Shown: positions 46,324-64,000 of the stretch, piece by piece
Layout: each line of letters opens with the position of its first letter
How positions within the stretch are numbered: the stretch's first letter is position 1
NCBI GenBank assembly: GCA_026398615.1
Contig: JAPLSN010000012.1
Location: forward strand, 62,001 to 126,000
DNA length: 64,000 nt
Source: Spirochaetota bacterium
GTDB taxonomy: Bacteria > Spirochaetota > Spirochaetia > Treponematales > UBA12059
Direction: 5' to 3'
The notes under the pieces: model-generated
Databases searched by the model: none
What the model saw: only the letters and a program-made list of their open reading frames with translations
Told to the model about the DNA's origin: nothing
Translations under genes and position numbers: made by a program

Positions 46324-46486
46324 ATGCAGGAACCGTGCCTAACTGGTAGTGGAAAAACATGACGCTTTTCAACCACCGGTTAGGCAATTACTCGGAACCC
46401 TGGCGGGTTTTTCGCAATTGCGGAAATCAAGGAAGTGTTGAAATAGGAACAATTGCCTATTTCAACACCCGGCATGGTTCCTGCAT
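46324..46486. repeat. TIR-bounded multi-palindrome element upstream of the BREX regulator
   Basis: 16-bp ends ATGCAGGAACCGTGCC / GGCATGGTTCCTGCAT; internal hairpins 46336-46386, 46409-46426 and 46435-46468. Confidence 0.8.
46401..46416 (+). promoter_or_regulatory. Candidate sigma54 promoter (GG-N10-GC)
   Basis: TGGCGGGTTTTTCGCA versus TGGCACGNNNNTTGCA; exact GG-N10-GC spacing with three mismatches. Confidence 0.3.
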
Positions 46487-46526
46487 CCATATCCTTGACT
46501 TGCCAGCGGCAATCGGGAGGGGTACG

Positions 46527-48116
46527 ATGCCCGACATGAATGCGATACGATCATTGATTTCCTTCGTCGGCATGCGCGATCCCTACCCGGAGAACGACGA
46601 GGAACCGGGGCCCCTCCTGTCCCTGCTCATCGCCCGGCCTTTCGACGAAGCCTGGCTCCTCTGCACGGGCGGGACTTTTCTCGAACGCGCCCGCGACCTC
46701 GAACGCGAAGCCCGTGACGAAGGCGTCCGGGCCCGCTTCCTTCCCATCGACTTCCCCGTGCGCGATGTCATCGACTATGCGGAAATCTGGAGCATCCTCG
46801 AACGCTCGCTTGCGAGCATCAAGGATCGCGCCGGATCGCTGCCGCGGGATTGGGCCTTCCTCCTCGATTCGGGGACACCCCAGATGAAGACTTCCCTCTT
46901 CCTGGCCGCCCGCTCGGGGCTTTTTCCCGCCGCGCTCGTCCAGGGAATACCGCCACGTTTCGCGGGCGGGACGTACAAGGCCCGCGACGTCCACCTCGAA
47001 GGTCTGCCGGAGATACGGCTGCCGTGCGCGGACGCCCAAACAGAAGGGAAACCGACAACGGAGGCGGCCTCGCGGAAACCGGGTTCGCGCCCGGCAGGTG
47101 CGGCATCCATCCCCGACGAACCGGTGGCCGCGTCGCCGGCATTTTCCGAAGCCCTCAGGAAAGCCCTCTCGGCTTCCCGTTACGACGATCCTGTCCTTAT
47201 TCTCGGAGAGACCGGGACTGGCAAGACCATGATCGCGCGCCGTATCCATGGCGAGAGTGCCCGGAAAGGCGGTCCCTTTGTCGAAGTGAACTGCTCCGCG
47301 ATATCCGGGAGCCTTGCGGAAAGCGAACTGTTCGGACATGTCCGTGGTGCATTCTCGGGGGCGGACAAAGCCCGATCCGGAAAGCTCAGGGCAGCCCAGG
47401 GGGGAACCCTCTTCCTCGATGAGATCGGCGATCTCTCCCTCGACGTCCAAGCCAAGCTGCTCAAGGCTCTCGAAGACAAGACCGTCACGCCAGTCGGATC
47501 GGATGAGCCGCTGAGCGCTGATGCCCGTCTCATCGCAGCAACGAATCGTGATCTTCCTGTCCTCATGAAGGCGGGCTGTTTCCGCCGCGACCTCTATGAG
47601 CGCCTCAAGGTTGTTGTCATCGGTTTGCCCCCGCTCAGGCAGCGTCGGGAGGACATCCGTCCTCTTCTGGATCATTTCCTCGCAGCCTGGAACAACCAGT
47701 ATGGAGAACGGCGCTTCCTGACCGAGGACGCCATCACCCTTCTCCAGGCCTACTCTTGGCCAGGCAATGTAAGAGAACTCCAGAATGCCCTGAGGAGCGC
47801 CGCCTGTTCGGCTACGAGCGAGGCTCTCGGACCTGAATCTCTTCCCGAGGAAATCCGCTTGTCATCCCGAGAAGGAAGGGGAACGTCATTGGCAACGGAT
47901 ACCGTCAGGAATGTCGATATCCCTGATGAAGGCCTCAACCTCAAAGCACGCCTACTCCAGATGGAGTGGGAGTACGTGGCCAAGGCTCTCCGCAAGTCAG
48001 AGGGCAATCGCGAGTCGGCAGCCCAACTCCTCGGCATGACGGGACATGCTTTCCGGAAAGCACTCCGCGAGCGCCTCGCGGCTTTCGCCGATGAAGGCTG
48101 GGAAGATGGAATGTAA
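46527..48116 (+). CDS. RtcR-like sigma54-dependent activator with N-terminal CARF-like domain
   Basis: N-terminus [15 protein letters not shown]...[34 protein letters not shown] (CARF/RtcR-like); AAA+ [46 protein letters not shown]; Fis-type HTH at C-terminus. Confidence 0.85.
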
Positions 48117-48169
48117 AACAAATGATAGCACTACAAAGGTTGATTCCACACAGGGAGCCATTCGTATGT

Positions 48170-48198
48170 TTGACACGTGCGTGCTTCCCCATTACCAT
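48170..48198 (+). promoter_or_regulatory. Candidate sigma70 promoter for brxA
   Basis: TTGACA - 17 nt - TACCAT just upstream of brxA ATG (48212). Confidence 0.4.
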
Positions 48199-48211
48199 TC
48201 TGCGACGCACC

Positions 48212-48811
48212 ATGAATGAACCATACCGGCTTTCCTTCACCTTCGGTGGACTCCTCTTCCCCGAGTCGGTGATTATCGCCCAACGCTACCAGGCGCTTCC
48301 CGATTGGGACGCATTGAAGGCCGAGGCCAAGCACGGGGAGCTTCTCAGGAAGACCCGCTCTTCAAGCCGCTACCGGTACTTCCGCGAGATACGCGATCGA
48401 TTCAGCCAGGCGTGGCCCTTCGAGCTCGAGCTCATCGCGGCGGAAGGAAATGGTGCCCGCCATGCCGCCTTTGCCATCTGCTGTCGTTATTACCTATTGC
48501 TAGGAGATTTCGTCCATGAGGTGGTTCGCGACAAGCTCGCCATGCGTGAGGACCACCTTGGGCTGAGTGACTACTATCACTTCCTCGAAGAGAAGGCGCC
48601 GTTTCATCCAGAATTGTCGACGCTCTCCGAGATAACCCTGACCAAGCTCAGACAAGTGACTTTCAGGATGCTCACGGAAGGCATGCTGCTGGAAAATGGC
48701 AGGGAACACCGCATCAAGAATCCATCCGTCCCAGAGTCCCTCGTCCGCAAATACCGAGAGCAGGGCGATACCATGGCCCTGGAACATCTGCTCTATCGGC
48801 AGCTCGGCTGA
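48212..48811 (+). CDS. brxA: BREX protein BrxA (DUF1819 family)
   Basis: MNEPYRLSFTFGGLLFPESVIIAQRY...FAICCRYYLLLGDFVHEVVRDKL...LTKLRQVTFRMLTEGMLLE; gene order. Confidence 0.9.
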   Translation: MNEPYRLSFTFGGLLFPESVIIAQRYQALPDWDALKAEAKHGELLRKTRSSSRYRYFREIRDRFSQAWPFELELIAAEGNGARHAAFAICCRYYLLLGDFVHEVVRDKLAMREDHLGLSDYYHFLEEKAPFHPELSTLSEITLTKLRQVTFRMLTEGMLLENGREHRIKNPSVPESLVRKYREQGDTMALEHLLYRQLG

Positions 48812-48838: not shown

Positions 48839-49453
48839 ATGAAACATTACGAAGAGACCTTCGAGACACTCTTCCAGATCGTCTCGAGTCCCAAGTTCCT
48901 CTCGATGGAAGGCCTCGGCAAGGAAGTTCCATACTTCATCCATGCCTACGACATAGAGGACCAGGCGATCGTTTTCAGGAAGATTGAAGACTTGATAAAG
49001 CGGCTCCAACTTGAGGGCATACCCGTCGCCCCCCTTGGGCTCTACGACTTTGTCATCGAGCATTTCAAGAAGTCGGGTGACCTCGATGACCTGTTCGAAC
49101 TCGAGCCCACGGTGAGCAAGGCGACCCTGCTCGACGAGATGATGAAGATGCTCTCGCCGGAAGAGATAGTCGTTCCGGAGATCGTCAGACGCATCGAAGA
49201 CACGAGCGCCAAGGTGGCGATCATCTGGCAGGTCGGCGAAGTCTATCCCTATATCCGGGCGCATGAGATCCTCACCAACCTTCAGTCGCGGCTGTCGGAC
49301 CGTCCGGTCATCGTCTTCTTTCCCGGTGAGTTCATCACCTCCTGGCAGGAGGGCTTCAAGCTCAAGCTTTTCGGGAAGCTCGAGGCACGCTATTACCGCG
49401 CGTTCAAGCTCGAAGAGTACATAATCAGGGGGAACCTCCATGCCGGCGCTTAA
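48839..49453 (+). CDS. brxB: BREX protein BrxB (DUF1788 family)
   Basis: IIWQVGEVYPYIRAHEILTNLQSRLSDRPVIVFFPGEFI...YYRAFKL; gene order. Confidence 0.92.
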   Translation: MKHYEETFETLFQIVSSPKFLSMEGLGKEVPYFIHAYDIEDQAIVFRKIEDLIKRLQLEGIPVAPLGLYDFVIEHFKKSGDLDDLFELEPTVSKATLLDEMMKMLSPEEIVVPEIVRRIEDTSAKVAIIWQVGEVYPYIRAHEILTNLQSRLSDRPVIVFFPGEFITSWQEGFKLKLFGKLEARYYRAFKLEEYIIRGNLHAGA

Positions 49454-52400
49454 GGACATACTCGCGAAGGACATCGCGCGGGACATCGACGGAGTCATCA
49501 AGGCCAACGACGAGCGCCACCTTTTCCAGGAAGTCGAAGAGTACGTCATCACCCGCGAGATCGAGCGGGAGCTCAAGCGCCTCGTCGAAGGCTACAAGGA
49601 AGCGATCTCGTCGCGCTCCGCCTATCCCTACAACGGTGTCTGGATCTCCGGCTACTTCGGTTCGGGTAAGTCACACCTTCTCAAAATCCTTTCCCTGGTC
49701 ATGTCGGGAAGAACCGTCGACGGGGTCAAGCTGCGGGACGTATTCCTCAAGAAGATCGACGATGCCCTATTCCGGGCGGACTTCGAAAAGATCCTCGCAC
49801 AGCCGACGACGAGTATTCTTTTCAATATCGAGCAATATGCCGAAGCCGCCAAGGCCAAGAGCGAGAACGCCGTCCTCTATGCCTTCGAGCGCATGTTCAA
49901 CAGGATGCGCGGTTACTATGCCGACTCCGGGTCCATTGCCGCTTTCGAGCGGGATCTCGATGAGGAAGGGCAGCTGGAAGCCTGGAAACGCGCATACTCA
50001 GGCAAGACCGGCAGGGAATGGGACGATCAGCGCCCGAAAGCCTTGCTTCTTGGAAGGAAAACCTTCACAGATTCACTCGCAACTTTTCGCGGTACCGGGA
50101 CAGATGAAGCAGTCAAGATCATCGAGCAGTACGAGAAGAGCTACTCCATCACCGTGGACGGGTTCTGTCAGGAAGTCGCGAAATGGCTGAATCGCCAGGA
50201 AGACAAGCGGCATCGCATCAATTTCTTCGTGGACGAGGTGGGCCAATTCATCGCCGACGACACGAAGCTCATGCTCTCCCTCCAGACCATCGTGGAGACA
50301 ATCGGTGTAGTCACGGGTGGCCGGGCATGGGTCTTCGTGACGAGCCAGGAAGCCATAGACAAGCTTGTCGGCGAGGTATCGAAGCGGCAGAGCATGGACT
50401 TTTCGAAGATCATGGGTCGTTTCAAGTTCCGCGTATCGCTGAGCTCGGCCGATGTCCGCGAGGTCATCCAGAAGAGGCTCCTCGAAAAGAACGAGTCGGG
50501 TACCGAAATCCTGCGGGATTACTACCACCGCGAGAAAGATTCGCTTCGCACGGTATTCGCCTTCGGAGAGGGCGCCAAGGCCGCGCACTTCAAGGACGAG
50601 GAAGCCTTCGTCTATTCGTATCCCTTCCCCGCATATCAATATGATCTGCTTCAGGATGCTCTTCGAGGACTAGCTGAACACAATGCTTTCATTGGAGCGC
50701 ACGTATCGCGCGGTGAGCGCTCCATGCTCGAGATCTTCCAGGACGTCGGCAAGGCTCATATGAAGAAGGAGCTTTTTGGTTTTGCTCCATTCGATGCAAT
50801 GTATGAGGGTATCAGACAGACGATGTATACAGGTCTTGTTGCGGCAATCAACCAGGCTGAACATAATATTCCCGATGAGCTTTCTATCCGCGTACTCAAG
50901 GCCCTCCTTCTCGTGAAGTACGTCAGGGAGTTCAAGGCTACGGTGGAGAACCTCAAGGTCCTCCTCGCCGATTCCATCGACACCGATCTCGCCGCCCTCG
51001 GCACGAAGATCCAGGAAGCATTCGCCCGGCTCGAGCGCGAGACCTATGTGCGGCGCAACGGCGAGCTCTACGAGTATCTCACCGACGACGAAAAGGACGT
51101 GGAAGAGGAAATCCGCCACGTGAGCGCGGAGGCCCAGGATTGTCGCAAATTTGTCGAAGGCATTGTCTTCGGCGAGATACTCAAGGGCAACCGAATCCGT
51201 TACGGCGCCAATGACGAGGATTACAGCTTCCAGAAGGTGATGGATGACGAGACGCCCAAGGGGCAAGGTGACCTCGTCATCCGAATCGCCACCCCGTGGC
51301 ACCCTGACGCGGAAAACCGGAATGCCCTCCTGGCCAGGTCCATGGCGCGCAAGGAACTTATCGTCCTCTTCCCGACCGATCCCCGCTTCATGGATGACCT
51401 TGAGCTCCACCTCAAGACCGATGCCTGGCTCAGGCGAACCGATGCGAAAGAAACGAAGTATGCCCGCATCTACGCCGACAAGCAGGCCCAGAACAACGAT
51501 CGCAAACGACGCCTGGGCGACCAGGTCAAGGATCTCGTGAAGCGCGCCGACTTCGCTGTCATGGATCAGGAGATCGGCGTTTCAGGGGGATCGCCCCTCG
51601 AGCGCATGGAACGTGCCTTCCGGGACCTCGTAAGCCGTTCCTACCCAAGCCTCCGGATGCTCAAGGTTCACTACACTCAAGAATCCCTCAAGAACATCCT
51701 CTACCCAAGCGATGACCTCTTCGCTTCAGGGGGCGCGGCCAAGACCGAGCCCGAATCCGAGATGGCATCGTGGATCGCACGGAAGCACCGCGACTCGGAA
51801 TCGATCACCTTGGCCGGGATCAAGGAAGAGTTCGGGAAAGGCCAGTTCGGTTGGTACGAATGGGCTGTCCTTGCCATCGTCGCATATCTCTTCATGAGGC
51901 AGGAGATCGAGCTTATCCGCAGCTCTGAAGTTCTCGGGAAGGACGAGGTTTTCGCCCTGCTCAACCAGAATCGCGGCCATGACGCGGTGACCATTCGTCC
52001 CGCGCCTATCGTCACTCAGGACGACATACGAAAGCTCAAGGAATTCCACAGCTCCCTCTTCCACGTGGACAATCCGGGCGCGACTGGCAAGGAAGCGGCC
52101 ATCGAGTTCAAAAAGGCCCTCGTTGAGTTCAAGAACGGCTTCAGGGAAAGCCTCCAAGGCGCATCGGACTTCCCCTTCCTGTCCAAGGCCGAAGAGACGA
52201 TCAAAAGCCTTGAATCCATCCTGAAGAACGAATGGCCCTGGTTCCTCGAGGAGCGCAAGAACTATGAGAAGGACCTTGCCCTCCTGGTCGAAGACCTCGT
52301 CCAGCCAATCCAGACCTTCCTCAAGGGTCCCAACGCGGAGACCTGGCGCCGGATAGACGACTGGCTCCGCTTCAACCGCGAAAACCTCGCAGAGATCGCC

Positions 52401-52916
52401 ATGCCCGATGCCGTCCAGGGCATCGAGACCTGCCGGGCGAGCCTCGATCTCTATAAGACGAGCGAAACGAAGCGCGCGAAGGATCTCTGGCAGTCCCTTC
52501 TCGAGAAGGAGAAGAGCCTCATCGCGGAGGAACGAGCCAAGGCGGAAGAAAAGGTCGAGATAGAGCGCGCGAAACTCAGGCAAGTCGAAGGTTGGGGCAA
52601 CCTGCCCGAGCCTAATCGCACCGAGCTTGAAAAAGGTTTCTCAGAGCTGAAAGCCAAGCTCGCTTCAACGAAGGGCCTGGCGGCGCTTCGCGATGCGGGT
52701 ACGACCCTGGCACCCAAGCTCTTCGAGTCTGGGCGCAAGCGAGTCCATGAGATACTTCACCCTACGGAGAAGATCGTCTATGCCGGAACCGAGGAAAAGC
52801 GCGTGCCATTCCCCAAGCAGGAACTCCGCACCGAGGGCGATGTGGACTCGTACGCGAGGGCTCTCGCGGAGCAGTGGAAGAAGGTGATACGAGAGGGGAA
52901 GAGAATAGGAATTTAG
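49440..52916 (+). CDS. brxC: BREX ATPase BrxC
   Basis: 1158 aa; NGVWISGYFGSGKSHLLKIL Walker A; INFFVDEVGQFI; BrxC-type architecture and order. Confidence 0.93.
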   Translation: MPALKDILAKDIARDIDGVIKANDERHLFQEVEEYVITREIERELKRLVEGYKEAISSRSAYPYNGVWISGYFGSGKSHLLKILSLVMSGRTVDGVKLRDVFLKKIDDALFRADFEKILAQPTTSILFNIEQYAEAAKAKSENAVLYAFERMFNRMRGYYADSGSIAAFERDLDEEGQLEAWKRAYSGKTGREWDDQRPKALLLGRKTFTDSLATFRGTGTDEAVKIIEQYEKSYSITVDGFCQEVAKWLNRQEDKRHRINFFVDEVGQFIADDTKLMLSLQTIVETIGVVTGGRAWVFVTSQEAIDKLVGEVSKRQSMDFSKIMGRFKFRVSLSSADVREVIQKRLLEKNESGTEILRDYYHREKDSLRTVFAFGEGAKAAHFKDEEAFVYSYPFPAYQYDLLQDALRGLAEHNAFIGAHVSRGERSMLEIFQDVGKAHMKKELFGFAPFDAMYEGIRQTMYTGLVAAINQAEHNIPDELSIRVLKALLLVKYVREFKATVENLKVLLADSIDTDLAALGTKIQEAFARLERETYVRRNGELYEYLTDDEKDVEEEIRHVSAEAQDCRKFVEGIVFGEILKGNRIRYGANDEDYSFQKVMDDETPKGQGDLVIRIATPWHPDAENRNALLARSMARKELIVLFPTDPRFMDDLELHLKTDAWLRRTDAKETKYARIYADKQAQNNDRKRRLGDQVKDLVKRADFAVMDQEIGVSGGSPLERMERAFRDLVSRSYPSLRMLKVHYTQESLKNILYPSDDLFASGGAAKTEPESEMASWIARKHRDSESITLAGIKEEFGKGQFGWYEWAVLAIVAYLFMRQEIELIRSSEVLGKDEVFALLNQNRGHDAVTIRPAPIVTQDDIRKLKEFHSSLFHVDNPGATGKEAAIEFKKALVEFKNGFRESLQGASDFPFLSKAEETIKSLESILKNEWPWFLEERKNYEKDLALLVEDLVQPIQTFLKGPNAETWRRIDDWLRFNRENLAEIAMPDAVQGIETCRASLDLYKTSETKRAKDLWQSLLEKEKSLIAEERAKAEEKVEIERAKLRQVEGWGNLPEPNRTELEKGFSELKAKLASTKGLAALRDAGTTLAPKLFESGRKRVHEILHPTEKIVYAGTEEKRVPFPKQELRTEGDVDSYARALAEQWKKVIREGKRIGI

Positions 52917-52921
52917 GATAT

Positions 52922-52956
52922 GGCTCACGCGGAGGCGCAGAGACGCGGAGAAGGGG
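52922..52956 (+). repeat. CTCACGCRGAGGCGCAGAG-type repeat copy
   Basis: ggctcacgcggaggcgcagagacgcggagaagggg. Confidence 0.85.
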
Positions 52957-53008
52957 AATGAAGAGGACAGGCAGGTATTGACGACCTGCGTAGGCTGATG
53001 TAGTTTAT

Positions 53009-53500: not shown

Positions 53501-53514
53501 GTGTGATGAAATAT

Positions 53515-53638
53515 CTCACGCAGAGGCGCAGAGGCGCGGAGAAGATGGAGGAGGAGAAAGGAGATGGTACTTGGGAATGATCTTTGCTCTTCTACTTTCC
53601 TCTCTGCGTTCTCTGCGCCTCTGCGTGTGATAATCTTA
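53515..53638. repeat. Paired inverted repeat unit 1
   Basis: ctcacgcagaggcgcagaggcgcggagaag ... tcctctctgcgttctctgcgcctctgcgtgtgataatctta. Confidence 0.85.
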
Positions 53639-53643
53639 TGAGT

Positions 53644-53668
53644 CGTTCACGCGGAGGCGCGGAGAATA
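53644..53668 (+). repeat. Repeat half-copy fused to 5' end of the GxxExxY gene
   Basis: cgttcacgcggaggcgcggagaata directly before ATG at 53670. Confidence 0.8.
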
Positions 53669-53669
53669 C

Positions 53670-54059
53670 ATGGAGCTGAACAAGATTACCGAGATCATCG
53701 TTGATACAGGATTCTCGATCCATTCGACGCTTGGGCCAGGGCTCCTCGAAAGTGCCTACGAGTCGATTTTTGCCTTTGAACTGGCTCAGCGAGGTCTTGG
53801 CGTCGAGCGGCAGGTTCCTATTCCGGTTCTGTGGAAGGGCATGCTCATCGATGAAGGATTTCGAGCAGACCTCATAGTTGAAAAGAGGGTGATCGTCGAG
53901 CTGAAGTCAGTGGAACGAATCGCGGCGCTTCATAAGAAGCAGGTGCTTACCTATCTCCGGATTTCGGGCTTGAAGGTTGGGCTGCTCATCAATTTTGGGT
54001 CGGCATATTTCAAGGATGGGATTTCACGGATCGTCAATGGGCTGGAAGAGGGAATGTAG
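53670..54059 (+). CDS. GxxExxY protein
   Basis: GPGLLESAYESIFAFELAQRGLGVERQVPIPVLWKGMLIDEGFRADLIVEKRVIVELKSVE. Confidence 0.92.
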   Translation: MELNKITEIIVDTGFSIHSTLGPGLLESAYESIFAFELAQRGLGVERQVPIPVLWKGMLIDEGFRADLIVEKRVIVELKSVERIAALHKKQVLTYLRISGLKVGLLINFGSAYFKDGISRIVNGLEEGM

Positions 54060-54063
54060 GAAT

Positions 54064-54202
54064 TGCTCACGCAGAGGTGCAGAGGCGCGGAGAAGAGGGA
54101 GAGAGTGAAGATGATGAGGATGAGGATGAGGACTAGGGAATTGTCTTTGCTTTTTATTTTTCCTCTCTGCGTTCTCTGCGGCTCTGCGTGAGAAAATTCT
54201 TG
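54064..54202. repeat. Paired inverted repeat unit 2
   Basis: ctcacgcagaggtgcagaggcgcggagaagagg ... tcctctctgcgttctctgcggctctgcgtgagaaaattctt. Confidence 0.85.
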
Positions 54203-54218
54203 GGATTGGGAGAATTGA

Positions 54219-55913
54219 ATGGACCTGAATAGTTTAAAGAAATTCGCCCAGGGGATGCGCCGGGACCTCGTCTCACAGATGGATGCTCGGATCGAGTATG
54301 TCCTCAAGTCGGACGACGAGTACCTCCGCGCCCGCCAATCCGAGAAAAAGAGGATCGTCGAGCTCGAGAAGACGAAGGGGCGGTCGGAACTGGCCGAGGA
54401 AGCTGCCTACCTCTGGTTCAATCGGCTTGCCGCTTTCCGCTACATGGACTCCCGCGGATATACAAGTCCCAGGCTAGTTTCCCCTCGAAGCGGTGAGTCC
54501 CAGCCCGAGCTTCTCGCGGAAATCAAGCATGGGAGGACTCCCGCTGAGCTTTTTTCCCGAGCGCCGCAGTTCGACGCGATCCTCTCGGGCCGGATCAAGG
54601 CCGCCCAACCTGACCGCGAGGTCTACAAGGAAGCCCTCCTGGGCACTTGCAATGCTTGGGCTACGCGCATGCCCTGGCTCTTTGCAAAGGTAGACGACTG
54701 GGCAAGTCTCCTCCTTCCCCAGGATCTTCTATCGGAGGATTCGCTCATCGCCCGCATGGTCTCAGGTCTTTCCGACGCGGACTGCGCGGAGGGCGTTGAG
54801 ATCATCGGCTGGCTCTACCAGTTCTACATCTCCGAGAAAAAGGACGAGGTCTTCGCCCTCCTCAAGAAGAACGTGAAGATATCAAAAGAGAACATTCCCG
54901 CCGCGACACAGCTCTTCACGCCTCACTGGATCGTACGCTTTATGGTGGAGAACTCCCTCGGGCGACTCTGGCTCCTCAACCGCCCGGAGTCCCGTCTAAA
55001 GGAGCGGATGAAGTACTTCGTGGAGTCCGACCCCGAGCCCGACTACCTCAAGGTGAAGGATCCGACCGAGCTCAAGTGCCTCGATCCCTGCTGCGGTTCG
55101 GGGCATATCCTGGCCTACTTCTTCGAGCTGCTCTACGCGATCTACGAGGAGGAGGGCTATGCGCCTGTGGAGATCCCCTCCCTCATCATCGAGAAGAACA
55201 TCTACGGCATCGACATCGACGAACGGGCGGCCGAGCTCGCGGCCTTCACGCTGGCCATGGTGGCGAGGGAGAAGGACAAGCGCTTCTTCGAGCGAGACAT
55301 CCAGCCCAATGTGATCGCCATGCGCGATGCGAGCGTGAACCTCAAGAAGCTGGGCGTGCGCCTATCGCCGGACCTCCAGGAAAGCTTGGAGCTCCTCAAG
55401 GAGGGGCGGAACTATGGTTCGCTCATTCCCGTACCGGCAGGGGCGGCTGGGGAGATCCACGAGGTCGAGGCGGGGATTGATGCCCACCGCTTCGATGACC
55501 TTTTCGGGGCGGCGGAGCTCGAGGAGCTGAAGGTGGCCTTCCGCATCCTCGAGTACCTCGAGCCGCGCTATCAAGTGGTGGTGACGAATCCGCCATACAT
55601 GGGCGGGAAGGGCATGAACGAGGGTCTCAAGGCCTATGTGGGCAAGCGCTACCCCGATTCCAAGTCAGATCTCTTCGCGGTCTTCATGGAGCGATGTCTC
55701 GAAGGTCTCGTGAAGCGCGGATACATGGGCATGATCAACCAGCAAAGCTGGATGTTCCTCTCGAGCTTCGAGGATCTACGCAAGAAGCTCCTCGAGGAGG
55801 ACACCATCGTGGTTATGGCCCATCTGGGAGCTCATGCTTTTGAGACGATTGGCGGCGAAGTTGTCCAGACCACGAGCTTTGTACTGAAGAAGGCAAGGCC
55901 GCCAATCGAATGA
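54219..55913 (+). CDS. pglX: BREX methyltransferase PglX, N-terminal (catalytic) half
   Basis: LKCLDPCCGSGHILAYFFELL (SAM motif I), VVTNPPYMGGKGMN (motif IV NPPY), IGGEVVQTTSFVLKK where full-length PglX would continue. Confidence 0.92.
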   Translation: MDLNSLKKFAQGMRRDLVSQMDARIEYVLKSDDEYLRARQSEKKRIVELEKTKGRSELAEEAAYLWFNRLAAFRYMDSRGYTSPRLVSPRSGESQPELLAEIKHGRTPAELFSRAPQFDAILSGRIKAAQPDREVYKEALLGTCNAWATRMPWLFAKVDDWASLLLPQDLLSEDSLIARMVSGLSDADCAEGVEIIGWLYQFYISEKKDEVFALLKKNVKISKENIPAATQLFTPHWIVRFMVENSLGRLWLLNRPESRLKERMKYFVESDPEPDYLKVKDPTELKCLDPCCGSGHILAYFFELLYAIYEEEGYAPVEIPSLIIEKNIYGIDIDERAAELAAFTLAMVAREKDKRFFERDIQPNVIAMRDASVNLKKLGVRLSPDLQESLELLKEGRNYGSLIPVPAGAAGEIHEVEAGIDAHRFDDLFGAAELEELKVAFRILEYLEPRYQVVVTNPPYMGGKGMNEGLKAYVGKRYPDSKSDLFAVFMERCLEGLVKRGYMGMINQQSWMFLSSFEDLRKKLLEEDTIVVMAHLGAHAFETIGGEVVQTTSFVLKKARPPIE

Positions 55914-55915
55914 AT

Positions 55916-55932
55916 GTTCCCAAAATGGGAAC
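55916..55932. promoter_or_regulatory. Palindromic operator candidate upstream of higBA
   Basis: GTTCCCA-AAA-TGGGAAC; half-site GTGGGAAC repeated inside promoter spacer. Confidence 0.55.
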
Positions 55933-55939
55933 AATTATA

Positions 55940-55968
55940 TTGACAAATTAGTGGGAACACAGTATATA
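55940..55968 (+). promoter_or_regulatory. Strong sigma70-like promoter for higBA
   Basis: TTGACA - 17 nt - TATATA. Confidence 0.7.
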
Positions 55969-55981
55969 TAAGGAAGATCCG

Positions 55982-56290
55982 ATGAACGTTGTTGCGCTCA
56001 GGACTCTCGTCCGGTTCTGGGGGAAGCACCCCAGGGCAAAACAGGCGCTGGAGGACTGGTACCACGAGGCGCTTCATGCTCGATGGGTCACTCCCGAGGA
56101 TGTCAAGCGACACTACCCCGGCGCAAGCATCCTCCGGAACAATCGGGTTCAGTTCGATATTCGGGGCAATGAGTTCAGGCTTGTCTGCGCCATACGCTAT
56201 GACAAGGGCCACATGTGGGTCAAATTCATCGGGACCCACGCTGAGTATGACAGGATCGATGCGGAGACATATGATGGAAATCCAGTTTAA
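55982..56290 (+). CDS. higB: HigB-type mRNA interferase toxin
   Basis: MNVVALRTLVRFWGKHPRAKQALEDWYHEA...GNEFRLVCAIRYDKGHMWVKFIGTHAEYDRID. Confidence 0.9.
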   Translation: MNVVALRTLVRFWGKHPRAKQALEDWYHEALHARWVTPEDVKRHYPGASILRNNRVQFDIRGNEFRLVCAIRYDKGHMWVKFIGTHAEYDRIDAETYDGNPV

Positions 56291-57503
56291 GGTGCTCAAG
56301 ACCGAAGCCGACTACGACCGCGCCCTGGCTGACCTCGAGCGTGTCTTTGACGCTCCCGCGGGTAGCCCTGAAGCCGATCAACTCGACGTCCTCGTGCTCC
56401 TCATCAAGAGTTACGAGAATGAGCATTACCCGATCGATGTGCCGGAACCACGAGAAGCCATCAGGTTCCGCATGGAGCAGGCCGGGCTGAGCCAAAAGGA
56501 TTTGATCCCGTATATCGGTTCGCGGTCCAAGGTGTCCGAGGTGCTCTCCGGCAAACGCGAGCTGACCCTTGCCATGATACGATCCCTCAACAAGCATCTT
56601 GGGATCCCTGCCGAGGTCCTGATCCGCGAGGCGCCAGCGGCGCTGCCGAAAGCTCTTGCCGACCTTGACTTCGCCCAGTTCCCCATCAAGGAGATGGAGA
56701 AGAATGGCGCCTTCTCCGGCTTCGACCTGGGCATGTCGAAGATAGGCGAGAAAGCCGAGGAGGCCATCCGATGGCTCGTGGGCCAGATCGGTGGATTCCA
56801 GGCGGTGCCTCAGGTGGCGCTGCGCAAGACCGATGGGATGCGCCTTAACTCCAAGCTGGACACTTATGCCCTTCTTGGCTGGAGCCTTCAAGCCTTGAAG
56901 GAGGCGGCCGATCACCCGTCGTCCGGAAGGTTCAAGAGCGAGGCCCTTACTGACAAGTTCATTGAAACCCTTGTGGGCTTGAGTGTTCTTGACGACGGTC
57001 CCAGGCATGCCAAGGAATACCTGGCCAAGGCTGGTATTACGCTGCTCGCCCTGCCTCACCTTACGCATACCTATCTGGACGGGGCGGTGTTCCTGAGGGA
57101 GAGGGAAGGTCCTCTCATCGTGCTCACCCTCCGCTACGACCGGGTCGACAATTTCTGGTTCGTGCTCCTCCATGAGCTCGGGCATCTCAAGCTCGGCCAT
57201 CTTTCCGGGGGAAGGACCTGGATCGCCGACGATCTCGACCTACCTAATGCCGATTCCATTCAGGAGAGGGAAGCCGACGACTTCGCTTCACGAGTCCTCT
57301 TGCCGCAGGAGTTCGATCTCGGTTCGCATGTGCGGCTTTCGTCGAAGGATGTCATTTCCTATGCCAGCGATCATGGCGTGCATCCCGCCATCGTTGCCGG
57401 GCGTATTCAGCATGCAAGGAAGGAATTTCGTACCTTCGCTAAGTTGCTTGGACGGGGAGAGGTGAGGAAGTGGTTAGTGGTGAAGGATAATGAAGCAAGC
57501 TAA
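56271..57503 (+). CDS. HigA-type XRE antitoxin fused to ImmA/IrrE-like metallopeptidase domain
   Basis: HTH (GLSQKDLIPYIGSRSKVSEVLSGKRELTLAMIRSLNKHLGIPAEVLI) plus WFVLLHELGHLKLGH (HExxH). Confidence 0.88.
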   Translation: MMEIQFKVLKTEADYDRALADLERVFDAPAGSPEADQLDVLVLLIKSYENEHYPIDVPEPREAIRFRMEQAGLSQKDLIPYIGSRSKVSEVLSGKRELTLAMIRSLNKHLGIPAEVLIREAPAALPKALADLDFAQFPIKEMEKNGAFSGFDLGMSKIGEKAEEAIRWLVGQIGGFQAVPQVALRKTDGMRLNSKLDTYALLGWSLQALKEAADHPSSGRFKSEALTDKFIETLVGLSVLDDGPRHAKEYLAKAGITLLALPHLTHTYLDGAVFLREREGPLIVLTLRYDRVDNFWFVLLHELGHLKLGHLSGGRTWIADDLDLPNADSIQEREADDFASRVLLPQEFDLGSHVRLSSKDVISYASDHGVHPAIVAGRIQHARKEFRTFAKLLGRGEVRKWLVVKDNEAS

Positions 57504-57510
57504 AAAATGG

Positions 57511-57540
57511 CTCACGCAGAGGCGCAGAGACGCAGAGAAT
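57511..57540 (+). repeat. Repeat half-copy
   Basis: ctcacgcagaggcgcagagacgcagagaat. Confidence 0.85.
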
Positions 57541-57780
57541 ACAAGGAGATGAGATGAGAAGGGCAATGAGTACATTCAGTCCTTTATCTGATTCCATTAG
57601 TCTCATTGGGCAAAAGTGCTTGACAAAGAGGCATATTGACCCTAGATTTTCAGGGTATTCTATTTTTGTGCATAGCGCCCCTGACGATACCCATACCGAT
57701 TCATCATGGTATGGACGACTCGGGGGCTTTTTGTTTTCTCATAGCTCAGTATCTCCACAGGAGATACATCATAGAAAAGG

Positions 57781-57901
57781 CTCACGCGGAGACGCAGAGA
57801 CGCGGAGAAGAGGGAAAAAGATAATGGAAAATTATGATTACGCTTTCCTATTCTCCTATTCCTCTCTGCGTTCTCTGCGGCTCTGCGTGAGATAATCTTA
57901 G
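57781..57901. repeat. Paired inverted repeat unit 3
   Basis: ctcacgcggagacgcagagacgcggagaagagg ... cctctctgcgttctctgcggctctgcgtgagataatctta. Confidence 0.85.
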
Positions 57902-57906
57902 GAATG

Positions 57907-57940
57907 GCTCACGCGGAGACGCGGAGGCGTGGAGAAGAGG
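57907..57940 (+). repeat. Repeat half-copy upstream of DUF2188-like gene
   Basis: ctcacgcggagacgcggaggcgtggagaagagg. Confidence 0.85.
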
Positions 57941-57949
57941 AGGAAGAGC

Positions 57950-58183
57950 ATGCCTAGGAAAGAACGCATTCATGTCACCCAAAGGCCCGATGGGCAGTGG
58001 CAGGGAAAGAAAGAGGGGGCCGAGCGGGCCTCCGTCGTCAGTTCGACACAGAGGGAAGCGGTTCAAGGATCGACCGACCTCGCCAAGAAGAATGGGCAGG
58101 CTCAGGTACTTATCCATGGAAGGGATGGGAAGATCCGGGACGAGCATACGTATGGGAGCGATCCGTATCCGCCCAAGGGATAA
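57950..58183 (+). CDS. DUF2188-like small protein
   Basis: IHVTQRPDGQWQGKKEGAERASVVSSTQREAVQGSTDLAKKNGQAQVLIHGRDGKIRDEHTYGSDPYPPKG. Confidence 0.8.
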   Translation: MPRKERIHVTQRPDGQWQGKKEGAERASVVSSTQREAVQGSTDLAKKNGQAQVLIHGRDGKIRDEHTYGSDPYPPKG

Positions 58184-58192
58184 GCATTCAAA

Positions 58193-58909
58193 ATGACTAA
58201 TCAAGCAAAAGTCATTCAACTCAACTGTGAAAGTCAAACCGGATGGCCTTATCCGCTGCTAAATGAGATACAAAAGCATCCTAATTCGTATGCTTTGTTG
58301 GAGAAATATAGATCTGCAAAAATTGGAGATCATCTAATATCGCTAGCCACAAAAATCACAATTATTGGATTAGTTATCCAAAGGCTGAATGAATCTCTGC
58401 GACTGATGAATCTTGAACTAGGAAATAGATCCGAGTATTTATTTGAATGTGCTAGCAACGGGTATGCATTTTCCTCTCAAGATAGGATGCTTCCATACCT
58501 ATTAGTTTTGGATGCTGAAACTTTTATCTTTGAGGCCCGCTCCAGCTTTGACATGCTTGTCAAACTCGCCGATTTGTTGCATTCCACATACGCGGTTTTT
58601 TCAACTTCGATTACCAAGGCCAATATTGCACAACTTCTAGCTGAGTCAGGCAGATCCGTAGAGTGGATCGCACTCTTGAAAGCTATAAGGGATATTGGAA
58701 TTCATGAGAGGGCTCCTTGGATTGGAATTTCTACTAATGGAAATGGCCGGAATCCTGCCCTAATTCTTGTTTTCGATGATACACACAATGTTCCTGCCTC
58801 CGGTGCTTGCTTTGCAATTGATACCCTAATAGCCATCAGCAAAGGAATTAATGAGCTATTCGCTTTTGTTATGCACAAATCAATAATCAGTATCGCCGGA
58901 GGGGCATAA
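58193..58909 (+). CDS. Unknown protein encoded between the two pglX halves (AT-rich)
   Basis: Intact 238-aa ORF, SD-like spacing to next ORF, composition distinct from flanks. Confidence 0.65.
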   Translation: MTNQAKVIQLNCESQTGWPYPLLNEIQKHPNSYALLEKYRSAKIGDHLISLATKITIIGLVIQRLNESLRLMNLELGNRSEYLFECASNGYAFSSQDRMLPYLLVLDAETFIFEARSSFDMLVKLADLLHSTYAVFSTSITKANIAQLLAESGRSVEWIALLKAIRDIGIHERAPWIGISTNGNGRNPALILVFDDTHNVPASGACFAIDTLIAISKGINELFAFVMHKSIISIAGGA

Positions 58910-58912
58910 GAC

Positions 58913-60715
58913 ATGGGTGCATTCATTCGCCTTGTTGATTATGATAATGCCGAAAGGAAGATTAGTGAGTTCAACGTTATCAATAATGCATATCGAATTA
59001 ATCAGTCCAATTTTATGAAAGTGCCAGGAAGCCCTATAGCATATTGGGTTACAGAGTCTTTTTATCGCGCCTTTGATTCGAAAGAAAAGGTTGGTGACCT
59101 TACAATCTCTGATGGACAGACCAAAACAGGTGATAACGCTCTCTATCTTCGTTTAATTTGGGAGGTTGATAGAAGCAAGATTGGCCCATCAAAAAAATGG
59201 GTGCTTCACCCGAAGGGAGGGACATACAGAAAATGGTATGGGAATGTAGACGCTCTTATTGATTGGTCATTAGGCGCAAGAAACCACTACCGTTCAGATC
59301 ATGTTGCTCGAATATTACCAGAGTACCTCTGGTGGAAAATAGGCGTGTGTTGGACCATGATAACAATGGGTAAGAAGAGCTTTAGGTATGTAAAATCAGA
59401 TGAGATTTTTAATTTAGCAGCGCCGACACTTTTTTTTCGAAATGATACAGATGCTCCTGGCATTATTGCATTTCTGAATTCAAAAGTTGCTGATCATATG
59501 GTAACAGTACTTAATCCAACAATAAATATGAATGTTGGCGAAATACAATCACTGCCCTTGATGGCTGGTATACCAGCTAGAATAAATACATGTGCAAAGA
59601 GGGCCATAAGTATTGAGAGAGCTGACTGGGACATGATTGAGACTTCTCATGATTTCTTGCGTTCTCCTCTTCTTACAGAATATTCTGATTCGCAAAACGA
59701 AATAACTATGGATTGTAATCTATCAGTTTTGAATTGGCCATCAGTTTACGATATGAGGAGAACGATAGATTTGACCATCCAGGTTAATTCGTATAAGGCA
59801 AATTGGAGAAGGCTCTTTTTAGAGCTACATGAAATCGAAGAGTCTTCAAATCAGGTCTTCATTCATTTATACAAACTTGGTGCCGAACTAAATAATAGTG
59901 TTTCCTATAATGAAATCACTATTCTTCAAGATCAGCTAATTGCATCAGATCTCAACGAAGGCAGAGTAGAGTTCGATGAAGTCGTTCTCGCCCAACAGTT
60001 TCTCTCCTACGGTGTCGGCTGCCTCATGGGGCGCTATTCCGTAGAGCAGGATGGACTCATCCTCGCTGATGCTGGCGCTACGATCGAGGATTTCAAGTCG
60101 AAGATCCCGAACGCCCGCTTCCTACCGGACGCAGATGGCATACTCCCTCTCACCGATGAGGATGACTTTTCCGACGACCTCCCAACTGCTTTCAAGTCGT
60201 GGCTTCGATTCATCTCGGGTTCTCACTATGATGATAATCTCCGCTGGATGGAGGATCGTCTCGGCAAAGACCTCCGGAGCTTTTTCGATCGGGATTTCTA
60301 CAAGGATCATATAAGGCGCTACAAGTCACGGCCCATCTACTGGATGGTTTCCTCACCCTCGGGTGCTTTCCGGGCTCTCCTCTACCTGCATCGCTATACC
60401 AAGGATACGGTTGGCAAGATTCTCAATGACTATGTCCGGCCGTACCGAACAAAGATTGATCAGAAGATACGTGGGCTTGAATCCATTATTGATTCCTCGG
60501 GTTCGAGTGCTGGGGAGAAGACCAAGGCCAAGAAAAGGCTTGCTCAGCTTGAGAAGTATAGGATTGAGATTGAGGCTTGGGAGAAGGAGAGCCTGTACCC
60601 GCAGGCGCTGAAGCGGGTCGAGTTGGATCTGGATGATGGGGTCAAGGTGAATTATCGGAAGCTGGAGGGGATACTGGAGCCGGTGAAGCAACTTGAGGCG
60701 AAGGAGGAGGAGTGA
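58913..60715 (+). CDS. pglX: BREX PglX, C-terminal (target recognition) half
   Basis: INQSNFMKVPGSPIAYWVTESFYRAF; LAQQFLSYGVGCLMGRYSVEQDGLILADAG; WMVSSPSGAFRALLYLHRYTKDTVGKILNDYVRPY; SD GGAGGGG before ATG. Confidence 0.9.
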   Translation: MGAFIRLVDYDNAERKISEFNVINNAYRINQSNFMKVPGSPIAYWVTESFYRAFDSKEKVGDLTISDGQTKTGDNALYLRLIWEVDRSKIGPSKKWVLHPKGGTYRKWYGNVDALIDWSLGARNHYRSDHVARILPEYLWWKIGVCWTMITMGKKSFRYVKSDEIFNLAAPTLFFRNDTDAPGIIAFLNSKVADHMVTVLNPTINMNVGEIQSLPLMAGIPARINTCAKRAISIERADWDMIETSHDFLRSPLLTEYSDSQNEITMDCNLSVLNWPSVYDMRRTIDLTIQVNSYKANWRRLFLELHEIEESSNQVFIHLYKLGAELNNSVSYNEITILQDQLIASDLNEGRVEFDEVVLAQQFLSYGVGCLMGRYSVEQDGLILADAGATIEDFKSKIPNARFLPDADGILPLTDEDDFSDDLPTAFKSWLRFISGSHYDDNLRWMEDRLGKDLRSFFDRDFYKDHIRRYKSRPIYWMVSSPSGAFRALLYLHRYTKDTVGKILNDYVRPYRTKIDQKIRGLESIIDSSGSSAGEKTKAKKRLAQLEKYRIEIEAWEKESLYPQALKRVELDLDDGVKVNYRKLEGILEPVKQLEAKEEE

Positions 60716-61050
60716 TGAGCGGCAGTACTCCATCGATTCTTGTCGATATCCCTGGTATGGCGGAGGCTGCGGCCTTCATCAGAAGCCGCTATTTGGTGGA
60801 TTCGATTTACATCTTCGGATCATTTGCCCGAGGCGAGGCCAGGGTAGACAGCGATATCGATATCTGCGTGACCCTCCTGCGCGCAGAAAAAAGGATATTG
60901 GACATCATGGTCGATCTTCACGCTGGCTTGTCAGCGATCCTGGAAAGGTCCATCGATGTGGTCGTCTATGACAAGAAGGTTTTCGACGAGCGCAGGGAGG
61001 CCGGCGCCTCCTTCGAGAAGACCATAGCCGCCGAAGGAATAGCCGTATGA
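60712..61050 (+). CDS. MNT-type nucleotidyltransferase (MntA-like antitoxin)
   Basis: DSIYIFGSFARGEARVDSDIDICV (GSxxRGxxxxxSDIDL motif). Confidence 0.9.
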   Translation: MMSGSTPSILVDIPGMAEAAAFIRSRYLVDSIYIFGSFARGEARVDSDIDICVTLLRAEKRILDIMVDLHAGLSAILERSIDVVVYDKKVFDERREAGASFEKTIAAEGIAV

Positions 61051-61433
61051 CGCGAAAAGACCTGGTCAACGAATGGCTTCTTGTGGCAACCGATGATCTC
61101 GATGCGGCGGAACATCTTTTCTCCGGCATGACCCGGGTACCGCTCGAAATAATCTGTTTCCACTGCCAGCAGGCCGGAGAAAAAGCCCTGAAAGCCCTGC
61201 TTCAGCATCTTGGGCGAGATGTTCCGCGAACACACGACCTCGTCGAACTGCGCAGGTTGCTGGGAACCGATCTTTCCGATGATGTCGAACTGGACAGATG
61301 CTGCGCCTTGCTATCCGCCTATGGCGTCACGACACGATACCCCGGGAGACCTGAACTGAGCATTACTGATGCGGAAGTGGCCTTTGCAGCGGCAAAACGT
61401 ATTCTTTCGTCGATTCGGCCATTGACCGAATAG
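61047..61433 (+). CDS. HEPN-domain protein (HepT-like)
   Basis: EWLLVATDDLDAAEHLFSGM...CFHCQQAGEKALKALL...RTHDLVEL; overlaps the MNT gene. Confidence 0.9.
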   Translation: MTRKDLVNEWLLVATDDLDAAEHLFSGMTRVPLEIICFHCQQAGEKALKALLQHLGRDVPRTHDLVELRRLLGTDLSDDVELDRCCALLSAYGVTTRYPGRPELSITDAEVAFAAAKRILSSIRPLTE

Positions 61434-61595
61434 GCGCTTGATCCCTGCTTCCATAACCGAAATGGCACATGGAAAATGAATTGGGGAAACTGAATGCGCA
61501 ATGATCGACGCGTTCTCAAATCGAAATCGAAGAGGATAACGCCTTGAACTTAAGTTTGAGCAGAACGATTTGCATTGATCGTGCTGGTCGTCCAG

Positions 61596-61651
61596 GTTCC
61601 CCAGCAAGTTCCCCAAGAAGTTCCCCAACAGGTTCCCCAAGAAGTTCCCAG
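61596..61651. repeat. 12-nt tandem iterons (GTTCCCCARSAR), about 4.5 copies
   Basis: gttccccagcaa gttccccaagaa gttccccaacag gttccccaagaa gttcccag. Confidence 0.9.
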
Positions 61652-61698
61652 AAAATCGCAGGCATCATGGCGAAGGAACCTGATGGCAACCGGGAGTT

Positions 61699-62295
61699 TT
61701 GGGATTGAAGGCACCTGCTCTTGACCGCTGCGAACGCTGCGGCAAAGCCATCGACTCTCCGGAAAGGTCCGTCTTCTTGGCCCGGCACGAAGGCGAACTA
61801 GGCGAACTCCTCTGCCTCGACTGCTTCAACCGTGAGATGGGGCCTTCCGTCGGCGTCGACATCCTTCCCTCGCAGTACCCTCCCCTTGAGCTTGCCGATG
61901 CCGAGGGGAAGGCTCATCGCTTTGAATTCGCTGTCAGGGTTTACCCCGACGGCATCTCCATCGAGTCGTGGGAGCCCGAATCGGATCCCGGTTATCGCTT
62001 CCAGGTCCTTGGTGATCCTGAGGATTGCGCAGGACTCTACAAGGAGCTCGTCAAACGGATGAGGAAGGCACTCAAGCGGAAGCACATTGAAGTCGGCTCC
62101 TATGGCGAGTCGATCAAAGGCACCAAGGTCCGAGGTTGGATCGACTGGGACCCCGAGGAAGGCGAGGCCGGACGAATGCCCCTCCTCATCATCGACGGCA
62201 AGCCCTACAAGTGGGAGCAGTTCGGCAGGATGCTTTCGTCCTTCGAGGGCTTCCAGTTCAAGCTCGATATCAAAGACCGATCTGAAGATCTGTGA
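61699..62295 (+). CDS. Unknown protein with N-terminal CxxC...CxxC zinc-ribbon-like motif
   Basis: LDRCERCGKAIDSPERSVFLARHEGELGELLCLDCFNREM; intact 198-aa ORF. Confidence 0.6.
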   Translation: MGLKAPALDRCERCGKAIDSPERSVFLARHEGELGELLCLDCFNREMGPSVGVDILPSQYPPLELADAEGKAHRFEFAVRVYPDGISIESWEPESDPGYRFQVLGDPEDCAGLYKELVKRMRKALKRKHIEVGSYGESIKGTKVRGWIDWDPEEGEAGRMPLLIIDGKPYKWEQFGRMLSSFEGFQFKLDIKDRSEDL

Positions 62296-62332
62296 ATGGG
62301 ATGCTCGAACAACTCAAGGCGAAGGAGGAGGA

Positions 62333-63412
62333 ATGAAACCAGCAGGTAAAGAGCGACCCGGAATCCCGGGTACCTTGCACAGGTTCCTCCAGCGCTTCGA
62401 TCAGGTACCTGCCGAAAGTGCCTGGTACCTTGCCGACATAGGAGAGGCTCGCGGCCTCCAGGAACTCAATACTCGGCAGAACCCTCAGATACTGAAAAGC
62501 CTCAAGCAGTTCGCGATCATAGAAAGCGCGGTATCCTCCAATCGTATCGAAGGTGTTGAAATGGACCGGGAGCGGATCATGCCGCTCCTTGTCGGTGGCT
62601 CGCAGGTGAGGGACCGGAACGAAGAGGAAATCCAGGGCTACAAGAAGGCCCTCGACCTCATCTTCGGCGCTCCGGCATCGCTCCCTGTAGCGGAGACAAC
62701 CTTCAAGGCTCTCCATGCTCTGGTACGCGGAGAGATCTGGGATGCCGGACAGTACAAAGACCGCGACAGCGATATCGTCGAAAAGTATCCCGATGGGCGG
62801 GAGCGAATACGGTTCCACACGGTTTCTGCAGCCCAAACACCACAGGCCATGGGACGTTTCGTGGCGGATTTCGATCAATGCCTTAAAGAGAGGACTGTCC
62901 ATCCGCTCATCGCAATTGCCGCTTTCAACCTGGATTTCCTGTGCATCCATCCCTTCAGGGATGGCAACGGTCGAGTCTCCCGGCTTCTCCTTGTCCTCAT
63001 GCTTCTTTCAGCCGGCTACGAGGTTGGACGCTACATCAGCCTGGAGCGCCTCATCGAGGAAAACAAGGAACGCTACTACGAGACGCTCGAGCTCTCTTCG
63101 ACGGGCTGGCATGAGGGCACGCATGATCCCTGGCCCCTGATCAACCATCTCCTGTTCATTCTCAAGTCCGCCTACAAGGAATTCGAGTCACGAGCCTCAG
63201 GGATCCAGCCTCCGCGAGGTGAAAAGCACGAGCGCATCCTTGAAGGCTTCGAGTCCCTACCCGAAACCTTCTCCATGGCCGATCTCGCCGCGAAATGTCC
63301 CGGCATCAGTCTGGAGACCGTCCGGAAGGCAGTGAAGGACTTGAAGGGTGAGGGGAAGATCACGGTGCTGAAGGCCGGTCGGGATGCGCTGTGGCGCAAG
63401 GTTGGGAAGTAG
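62333..63412 (+). CDS. Fic family protein
   Basis: IESAVSSNRIEGVEMD (inhibitory-helix-like S/TxxxE(G/N)), HPFRDGNGRVSRLL (HPFxxGNGR). Confidence 0.95.
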   Translation: MKPAGKERPGIPGTLHRFLQRFDQVPAESAWYLADIGEARGLQELNTRQNPQILKSLKQFAIIESAVSSNRIEGVEMDRERIMPLLVGGSQVRDRNEEEIQGYKKALDLIFGAPASLPVAETTFKALHALVRGEIWDAGQYKDRDSDIVEKYPDGRERIRFHTVSAAQTPQAMGRFVADFDQCLKERTVHPLIAIAAFNLDFLCIHPFRDGNGRVSRLLLVLMLLSAGYEVGRYISLERLIEENKERYYETLELSSTGWHEGTHDPWPLINHLLFILKSAYKEFESRASGIQPPRGEKHERILEGFESLPETFSMADLAAKCPGISLETVRKAVKDLKGEGKITVLKAGRDALWRKVGK

Positions 63413-63530
63413 GTACTGGTATTCCAATTAGGTATTTAATTGGGTATCATTGTCGATTGGGGTGGAGGAATGGAAAGCACGGCAAGACATATTGCATACA
63501 CCCACCCGCAAGTGTTAGCATTATGTCCTG

Positions 63531-64000
63531 ATGGCCAACAAGAAGGCTGAAGAACTGTTTCGCCAGAACGGCGGACAGCTCAGGATGAGCCAGGCTCTTG
63601 AAGGCGGAACCTCTCGTTCCGTGCTTTATTCCATGCGGGATAAGGGAATAATCGTTCAAGTTTCACGTGGGGTCTATCGTCTGGCGGAGCTGCCAGAGCA
63701 CCAGGAGCCAGACCTCTGCATCGTGAGCCTGCGCTATCCCAAGGCTGTCATCTGCCTGATTTCAGCCCTCTCCTTTCATGACCTGACAACCCAGATACCC
63801 CATGAGATCTACATAGCCCTTCCCCGTGGCAGCCGGGCGCCGACCCTTACCTCACCCCCGGTTCGCCACTTCTTTTTCTCAGGCCAGGCCTATGAGGCTG
63901 GCATCGAAGACCATGAGCTGGACGGGGTTCGCATTCATGTATACGACCGGGAAAAGACCCTTGCCGATTGCTTTCGTTTCCGCAACAAGGTGGGCATGGA
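63531..64000 (+). CDS. AbiEi-like type IV antitoxin/transcriptional regulator, truncated by window end
   Basis: LRMSQALEGGTSRSVLYSMRDKGIIVQVSRGVYRLAELP...YPKAVICLISALSFHDLTTQIPHEIYIALPRG...VYDREKTLADCFRFRNKVG. Confidence 0.88.
   Translation, partial: MANKKAEELFRQNGGQLRMSQALEGGTSRSVLYSMRDKGIIVQVSRGVYRLAELPEHQEPDLCIVSLRYPKAVICLISALSFHDLTTQIPHEIYIALPRGSRAPTLTSPPVRHFFFSGQAYEAGIEDHELDGVRIHVYDREKTLADCFRFRNKVGM

Follow-up and report, generated by a model that had tools for sequence, protein, structure and literature searches.

A divided PglX in a type 1 BREX locus of a Spirochaetota bacterium, with a toxin–antitoxin cassette and variable cargo between its two genes

Bacteriophage exclusion (BREX) systems are widespread, and their mechanism is unsettled. 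The closest described counterpart of the locus considered here is type 1 BREX, whose methyltransferase, PglX or BrxX, has solved structures (E. coli, 9EWZ and 8ZEK; Salmonella, 8C45). In E. coli BrxX, the methyltransferase domain spans residues 211–650, the target-recognition domain (TRD) residues 651–837, and the hinge loops residues 638–675 (PMC11842806); a 2025 review describes the TRD as an integral part of the BREX methyltransferase. We have analyzed a 64,000-nucleotide stretch (the window) from the 3.38-Mb genome of a Spirochaetota bacterium (GCA_026398615.1, contig JAPLSN010000012.1, our contig C38, positions 62,001–126,000). Its PglX resembles the known proteins in the sequence and predicted fold of both halves, in its motifs, and in its operon context, but it is encoded by two genes, cut inside the methyltransferase domain, with cargo between them. 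PglX is thus not a single chain here but two open reading frames (ORFs), PglX-N and PglX-C, 3 kb apart (Table 1). The adenine-methyltransferase motifs, the TRD, and the C-terminal domain of PglX are all present, spread over the two proteins, and the locus is a variant of type 1 BREX with a divided PglX. Judging from the sequence, it is likely that this is a complete BREX system in which the two complementary proteins form one assembled enzyme.

The division is exact. The PADLOC PglX model PDLC02521 (1174 positions) is covered from 1 to 590 by the N half (E=3e-196) and from 597 to 1172 by the C half, and the NCBIfam model BREX_1_MTaseX (1210 positions) from 42 to 617 and from 641 to 1208, respectively; against E. 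coli BrxX, the alignment of the N half extends to residue 609 and that of the C half begins at 618. In a junction alignment of 40 sequences, 27 full-length PglX proteins among them, the halves are continuous: PglX-N ends at reference residue 572, and PglX-C, with a start codon at the junction, begins at 573. No residue is lost, and 9 of 9 conserved columns around the junction are retained. An earlier reading of the letters of this stretch alone (the sequence-only reading) had located two intact ORFs, with their end sequences, correctly, and had held that they are adjacent in full-length PglX, on which the profiles, E. coli BrxX, and the step from 572 to 573 all agree. It had also named missing conserved residues at the junction as a possible objection; the alignment of both halves to full-length PglX disposes of this, as the complementarity is exact.

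The same reading described the two ORFs as a catalytic and a target-recognition part. The ORFs are indeed separate, but the boundary lies elsewhere: by the E. coli BrxX borders, the cut falls inside the methyltransferase domain, about 35 residues before its end, and not between that domain and the TRD. PglX-N carries the catalytic motifs DPCCGSG (motif I, residues 289–295) and NPPY (residues 457–460), and PglX-C begins with the last piece of the methyltransferase domain, so that binding between the two proteins would be expected. This bears on the possibility that the halves do not pair, PglX-N methylating alone or with some other specificity protein and PglX-C acting as a separate DNA-binding factor. 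Such a division of labor would fit the separate genes and the presence of both motif I and NPPY in PglX-N. It is nevertheless improbable, because the last part of the cut domain resides in the C half, because no split locus on a sufficiently long contig lacks PglX-C, and because the NCBIfam and PADLOC models join the halves without overlap.

In the paired arrangement, PglX-N would supply the N-terminal domain and catalysis, and PglX-C the end of the methyltransferase domain, the TRD, the spacer, and the C-terminal domain; together they would form one BrxX-like enzyme that recognizes and methylates the BREX site. Their genes flank a self-regulated HigB/HigA-ImmA cassette, which brings an operator and a promoter of its own, and variable cargo. 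The TRD block may be exchanged between strains as a module, and the toxin–antitoxin (TA) pair may serve as an abortive or addiction backup. The division would be comparable to that between HsdM and HsdS of type I restriction, where catalytic and specificity subunits are also separate and the specificity part is the more variable. The analogy is not exact: the nearest structure to PglX-C is BrxX, the type I S subunit 1YF2 matching at E=0.2 only; PglX-C combines a single TRD region with the BREX C-terminal domain, where HsdS has two TRDs; and the locus, in which no HsdR is found, is not type I restriction-modification. An AlphaFold2 model of PglX-C, predicted as a single chain without its PglX-N partner, has a pLDDT (predicted local distance difference test) of 78 and matches solved BrxX/PglX structures, in their C-terminal part, at about 1e-29. 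In BREX, the DNA-recognizing part is apparently able to stand alone as a subunit.

Two relatives of the bacterium share the split. Among 149 genomes sampled as relatives, four have a PglX-N match, including the window's own. In G135 and G033, from two other families of the order, the N half is exactly 564 amino acids long, ends in PPKE, and is followed by HigB, HigA, and a separate PglX-C; pglZ and brxL are present in both. In the third relative, G047, the C region directly follows the N region, with frame breaks. PglX-N is the most conserved of the genes compared. Between the window and G135, its dN is 0.10 and its dS 2.8 (saturated), for a dN/dS of about 0.04, and by this measure it is under strong purifying selection. 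PglX-C is 32–42% identical across the first 300 alignment columns, the target-recognition part, and 60–82% identical across the last 250 amino acids.

Two other explanations put forward by the sequence-only reading can be judged from these comparisons. First, a TA-bearing element may have inserted into pglX and silenced BREX, leaving the halves as remnants. Foreign genes of about 3 kb do separate the two parts of pglX, and a low-GC block and hairpin repeats are present, as might follow such an event. This explanation is very unlikely, being contradicted by the intact frames, by the same split in three families, and by selection on PglX-N together with conservation of the C-terminal part of PglX-C; moreover, the halves lack no residue, and the junction carries a start codon. 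Second, inversion or excision between 10-bp inverted repeats might toggle or rejoin PglX as a reversible cassette. The repeat does exist, exact and at both junctions, and arises in only 0.11% of trials with shuffled 50-bp flanks. But neither G135 nor G033 has it, although both show the same split; no recombinase is recognized among the gap genes with family matches (U238, the 238-amino-acid gene, is without any match); rejoining would have to delete a stop and hold the frame; and even lineages in which PglX-N has diverged to 76% have this junction fixed. We give this explanation hardly any credence. The remaining option of that reading, a working two-subunit PglX, is the one that we favor, since three families share one architecture, PglX-N is under strong purifying selection, the halves complement each other exactly, and the BREX operon is complete.

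Several points weigh against a two-subunit enzyme. The spirochaete halves retain 259 of the 334 columns conserved in full-length PglX, versus 319–330 in a second class of split proteins described below, in a comparison whose reference set is mostly proteobacterial. The C-terminal domain of Salmonella PglX could not be expressed alone (Went et al., PMC11341690), and PglX-C may therefore need a partner for folding. Finally, the higBA layout is found in three spirochaete genomes only, at least one of them a metagenome-assembled genome. An assembly artefact was considered separately and is unlikely, since the split falls at the identical residue in the three genomes, and the other class of split is seen in isolates.

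The sequence-only reading dealt with a single case, and although the split is real, it is not unique. In a wider sample, the 80 PglX loci closest to the query among GTDB species genomes (a set biased toward its near relatives), pglX is full length in about 61, nine have separate halves with genes between them on one contig, five have a short N gene and then other genes up to the contig end, and another five could not be judged; G532, whose pglX is apparently decayed, was counted as not cargo-split. Standalone C-half frames are present in most of the split-locus genomes. When 298 genomes of Pseudomonadaceae were screened, 4 of the 10 that bear pglX had a short N frame, and two of these four, new to the sample, hold HEC-02-like and RT-UG5-like genes, named by sequence similarity, between PglX-N and PglX-C. 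Pseudomonads and others form the second class, cut about 26 residues later than in the spirochaetes, at the hinge; it includes isolates, and its C halves are intact. Culturable strains with a split pglX are Halopseudomonas oceani DSM 100277, Pseudomonas oleovorans DSM 1045, and P. benzenivorans DSM 8628. Among the typed cargo of this class are HEC-02 ATPases, RT-UG5-nitrilase, SIR2 with HerA, Shedu SduA, a Schlafen AlbA_2 protein, and PDC-S02 (DUF1016-like) nucleases. The split state changes at least six times (gains or losses) on a 69-row PglX-N tree, and with long-branch rows removed, an approximately unbiased test rejects a single clade of all split rows (p 0.0002). As far as these trees allow, then, other bacteria have split pglX independently, with other defense genes inside, although the tree does not fix the exact number of independent splits. 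The interior of pglX is best read as a recurrent site for defense cargo.

In Pacificibacter maritimus (L076 4293–13525), two HEC-02-like genes lie between two complete copies of pglX. Were the inner halves of such an array lost, the split form with cargo would result, and the locus is thus a possible candidate for an intermediate. A Sulfurimonas contig (L035 608–3999) encodes a long-branch, 530-amino-acid PglX-N ending at the spirochaete loop, then two similar ORFs that by eye look to be of ORF6N type, and stops before any C half. Four plasmid records carry pglX as a single gene or, in Hymenobacter, as three adjacent ORFs, probably through frameshifts.

Defense genes lodged within core BREX loci have been described before (Rakesh and Krishnan 2026, PMC12839542; the HEC and PDC candidates of PADLOC). 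The difference here is that the cargo lies inside a divided pglX itself; the 2026 survey describes embedded effectors, and neither "split" nor "fission" occurs in it (PMC12839542). In the open-access literature, we found no published description of a split PglX, so priority is not certain. A 2024 preprint by Payne et al. reportedly deals with embedded defenses as well. The half-length PADLOC models PDLC02525 (607 positions) and PDLC02516 (593 positions) each cover one half almost exactly and are listed plainly as PglX, which suggests that split proteins are in the databases without comment. Split pglX is a variant of type 1 BREX that is commoner than the one case first noticed. A natural, repeatedly evolved split indicates that specificity can be a separate subunit, provides ready-made constructs for separating methylation, site recognition, and restriction, and identifies the pglX interior as a nesting site for defense genes. 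There is also a risk of misreading: with the NCBI PglX model, the N half scores 640 bits and is named, but the C half, at 494.7, narrowly misses the cut-off of 500, and the locus would look like a truncated pglX.

The genes between the halves are those that the sequence-only reading described, namely HigB, HigA-ImmA, DUF2188, and the 238-amino-acid gene. The first two resemble PD-Lambda-2 (Vassallo et al. 2022, PMC9519451) in having a HigB-like component A and a component B with helix-turn-helix and peptidase parts, in the same order, and each matches the PADLOC model of its counterpart along the whole length. Component C, which is required for defense in E. coli (PMC9519451), has no match among the gap genes or in the genome (the latter searched without a positive control), DUF2188 and a variable gene following instead, and we therefore regard the genes as a PD-Lambda-2-like A/B pair and not the full system. 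Between the PglX-N stop and HigB, a TTCCC-N5-GGGAA palindrome and a TTGACA promoter with 17-nucleotide spacing are found in the window, G135, and G033 alike, with a single change in one arm of the palindrome in G033. Because a generic promoter and terminator scan gave counts no better than shuffles, the promoter is judged by cross-genome conservation alone. In G004, of the window's family (L130, G004:C104 6634–8122), the same operator and promoter precede a homologous higBA that lies upstream of a type I restriction-modification operon. The operator and promoter thus travel with the cassette, and the TA pair is found with more than one kind of modification system. It is probably a self-regulated module that adds abortive defense or stabilizes the locus.

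An extension of the two-subunit enzyme, not opposed to it, is that the higBA promoter also drives PglX-C, in which case the antitoxin-repressor would control how much specificity subunit is made and link the toxin, as a guard, to the integrity of BREX. Consistent with this, the PglX-N stop is immediately followed by the conserved operator and promoter, and the intervening genes lie on the same strand. However, the promoter belongs to the TA cassette and also precedes higBA beside the type I operon, and downstream of HigA comes a gap of 426 bp that contains hairpin repeats and possibly a second promoter, so that we hold the guard function to be conceivable but doubtful. Slightly more doubtful is a modular BREX with a fixed catalytic subunit and an exchangeable block of specificity and cargo recombining between strains, in which the TA pair would be transcriptionally coupled to the specificity subunit and the toxin freed upon loss or inhibition of BREX.

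The cargo adjoining PglX-C varies: it is U238 in the window, a 409-amino-acid gene in G135, and absent in G033. DUF2188 is intact in the window and G135 (79% identical) and an 18-codon stub in G033. U238 has no homologue in the 149 relatives, plasmids, or viral contigs, and no Pfam, PADLOC, or NCBIfam family; its AlphaFold2 model (pLDDT 36) is of low confidence and unusable, and an R-x4-H motif is a weak hint of a HEPN-type RNase. A relationship to the 409-amino-acid gene was considered and rejected (E=0.12). The low-GC block covers U238 and the TRD/spacer part of PglX-C, stopping near the conserved C-terminal part, and a comparable dip crosses the TRD in G033. This low-GC specificity block has probably been replaced through recombination.

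The type 1 BREX set of the genome (brxA, brxB, brxC, pglX, pglZ, and brxL) is complete and in one locus. The order is a CARF-RtcR sigma-54 regulator, brxA, brxB, brxC, insertions of RHH/ParE and GxxExxY genes, PglX-N, HigB, HigA-ImmA, DUF2188, the 238-amino-acid orphan, PglX-C, MNT/HEPN, a Fic-like gene (assigned by reading its sequence), AbiEi/AbiEii, and, beyond the window end, PglZ (ending at 129581 on C38; window-equivalent about 65044–67581) and BrxL (ending at 131705; about 67597–69705). From its position directly upstream of brxA, the CARF-RtcR activator is possibly the BREX regulator, and induction may run through a CARF ligand. At the same place in G033, its homologue is present in pieces only.

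Table 1. Positions of the BREX genes, nested genes, and sequence elements in the window
Feature	Position	Strand	Length, matches, remarks
CARF-AAA-HTH (RtcR-like) sigma-54 regulator	46359..48116	+	PADLOC RtcR_PspF2--CARF_AAA_HTH E=5.5e-115
BrxA	48122..48811	+	Pfam BrxA 1e-36
BrxB	48839..49453	+	Pfam BrxB 1.8e-30
BrxC	49440..52916	+	PADLOC BrxC-PglY, 1123 bits, full length
PglX-N (N-terminal and methyltransferase part)	54219..55913	+	564 aa; PADLOC PDLC02525 2.3e-199
Operator palindrome TTCCCAAAATGGGAA	55917-55931	+	Conserved in G135, G033, and before higBA in G004
higBA promoter TTGACA-17-TATATA	55940-55968	+	Cross-genome conservation (G135, G033, G004)
HigB-type toxin (PD-Lambda-2_A-like)	55982..56290	+	Pfam HigB_toxin 1.8e-28; PADLOC PD-Lambda-2_A 5e-34
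HigA HTH fused to ImmA/IrrE peptidase (PD-Lambda-2_B-like)	about 56280..57503	+	PADLOC PD-Lambda-2_B 2.9e-126, full length
DUF2188 protein (PDC-S16)	57929..58183	+	Pfam DUF2188 2.9e-22
Low-GC block	58180..59960	+	39% GC vs 61% in window; change-point log-likelihood gain 45
U238, orphan cargo gene	58193..58909	+	238 aa; no family match
PglX-C (methyltransferase-domain end, TRD, spacer, C-terminal domain)	58913..60715	+	600 aa; PADLOC PDLC02521 3.3e-153, PDLC02516 9.7e-144
MNT nucleotidyltransferase	60712-61050	+	Pfam NTP_transf_2 8e-14; accessory, before PglZ
HEPN, paired with MNT	61047-61433	+	Pfam HEPN 3.8e-25; accessory, before PglZ

Six copies of the repeat CTCACGCAGAGGCGCAGAG and its complement form hairpins of about 120–140 bp, at 52917–52971, 53508–53664, 54059–54227, 57504–57558, and 57774–57955; they flank the GxxExxY gene and sit between HigA and DUF2188. 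An Rfam scan of 53–61 kb returned eukaryotic miRNA-type models only, below cut-offs and driven by these repeats. Also between HigA and DUF2188, at 57620–57735, a GC-rich hairpin and a T run come after a TTGACA-17-TAGATT match; these might mark a small RNA, or an attenuator that precedes the PglX-C end of the operon.

The accessory stretch that holds MNT/HEPN, the Fic-like gene, and AbiEi/AbiEii runs from 60712 to 64000 and onward along C38. In the partial BREX locus of G025 (L131), homologues of MNT, HEPN, AbiEii, and PglZ stand in a similar series, and a short HigA-like fragment follows PglX-C. G135 (L007 5894–10349) has, between PglX-C and PglZ, a DrmD-like SNF2 helicase and what appears by eye to be an HSP70-like protein.

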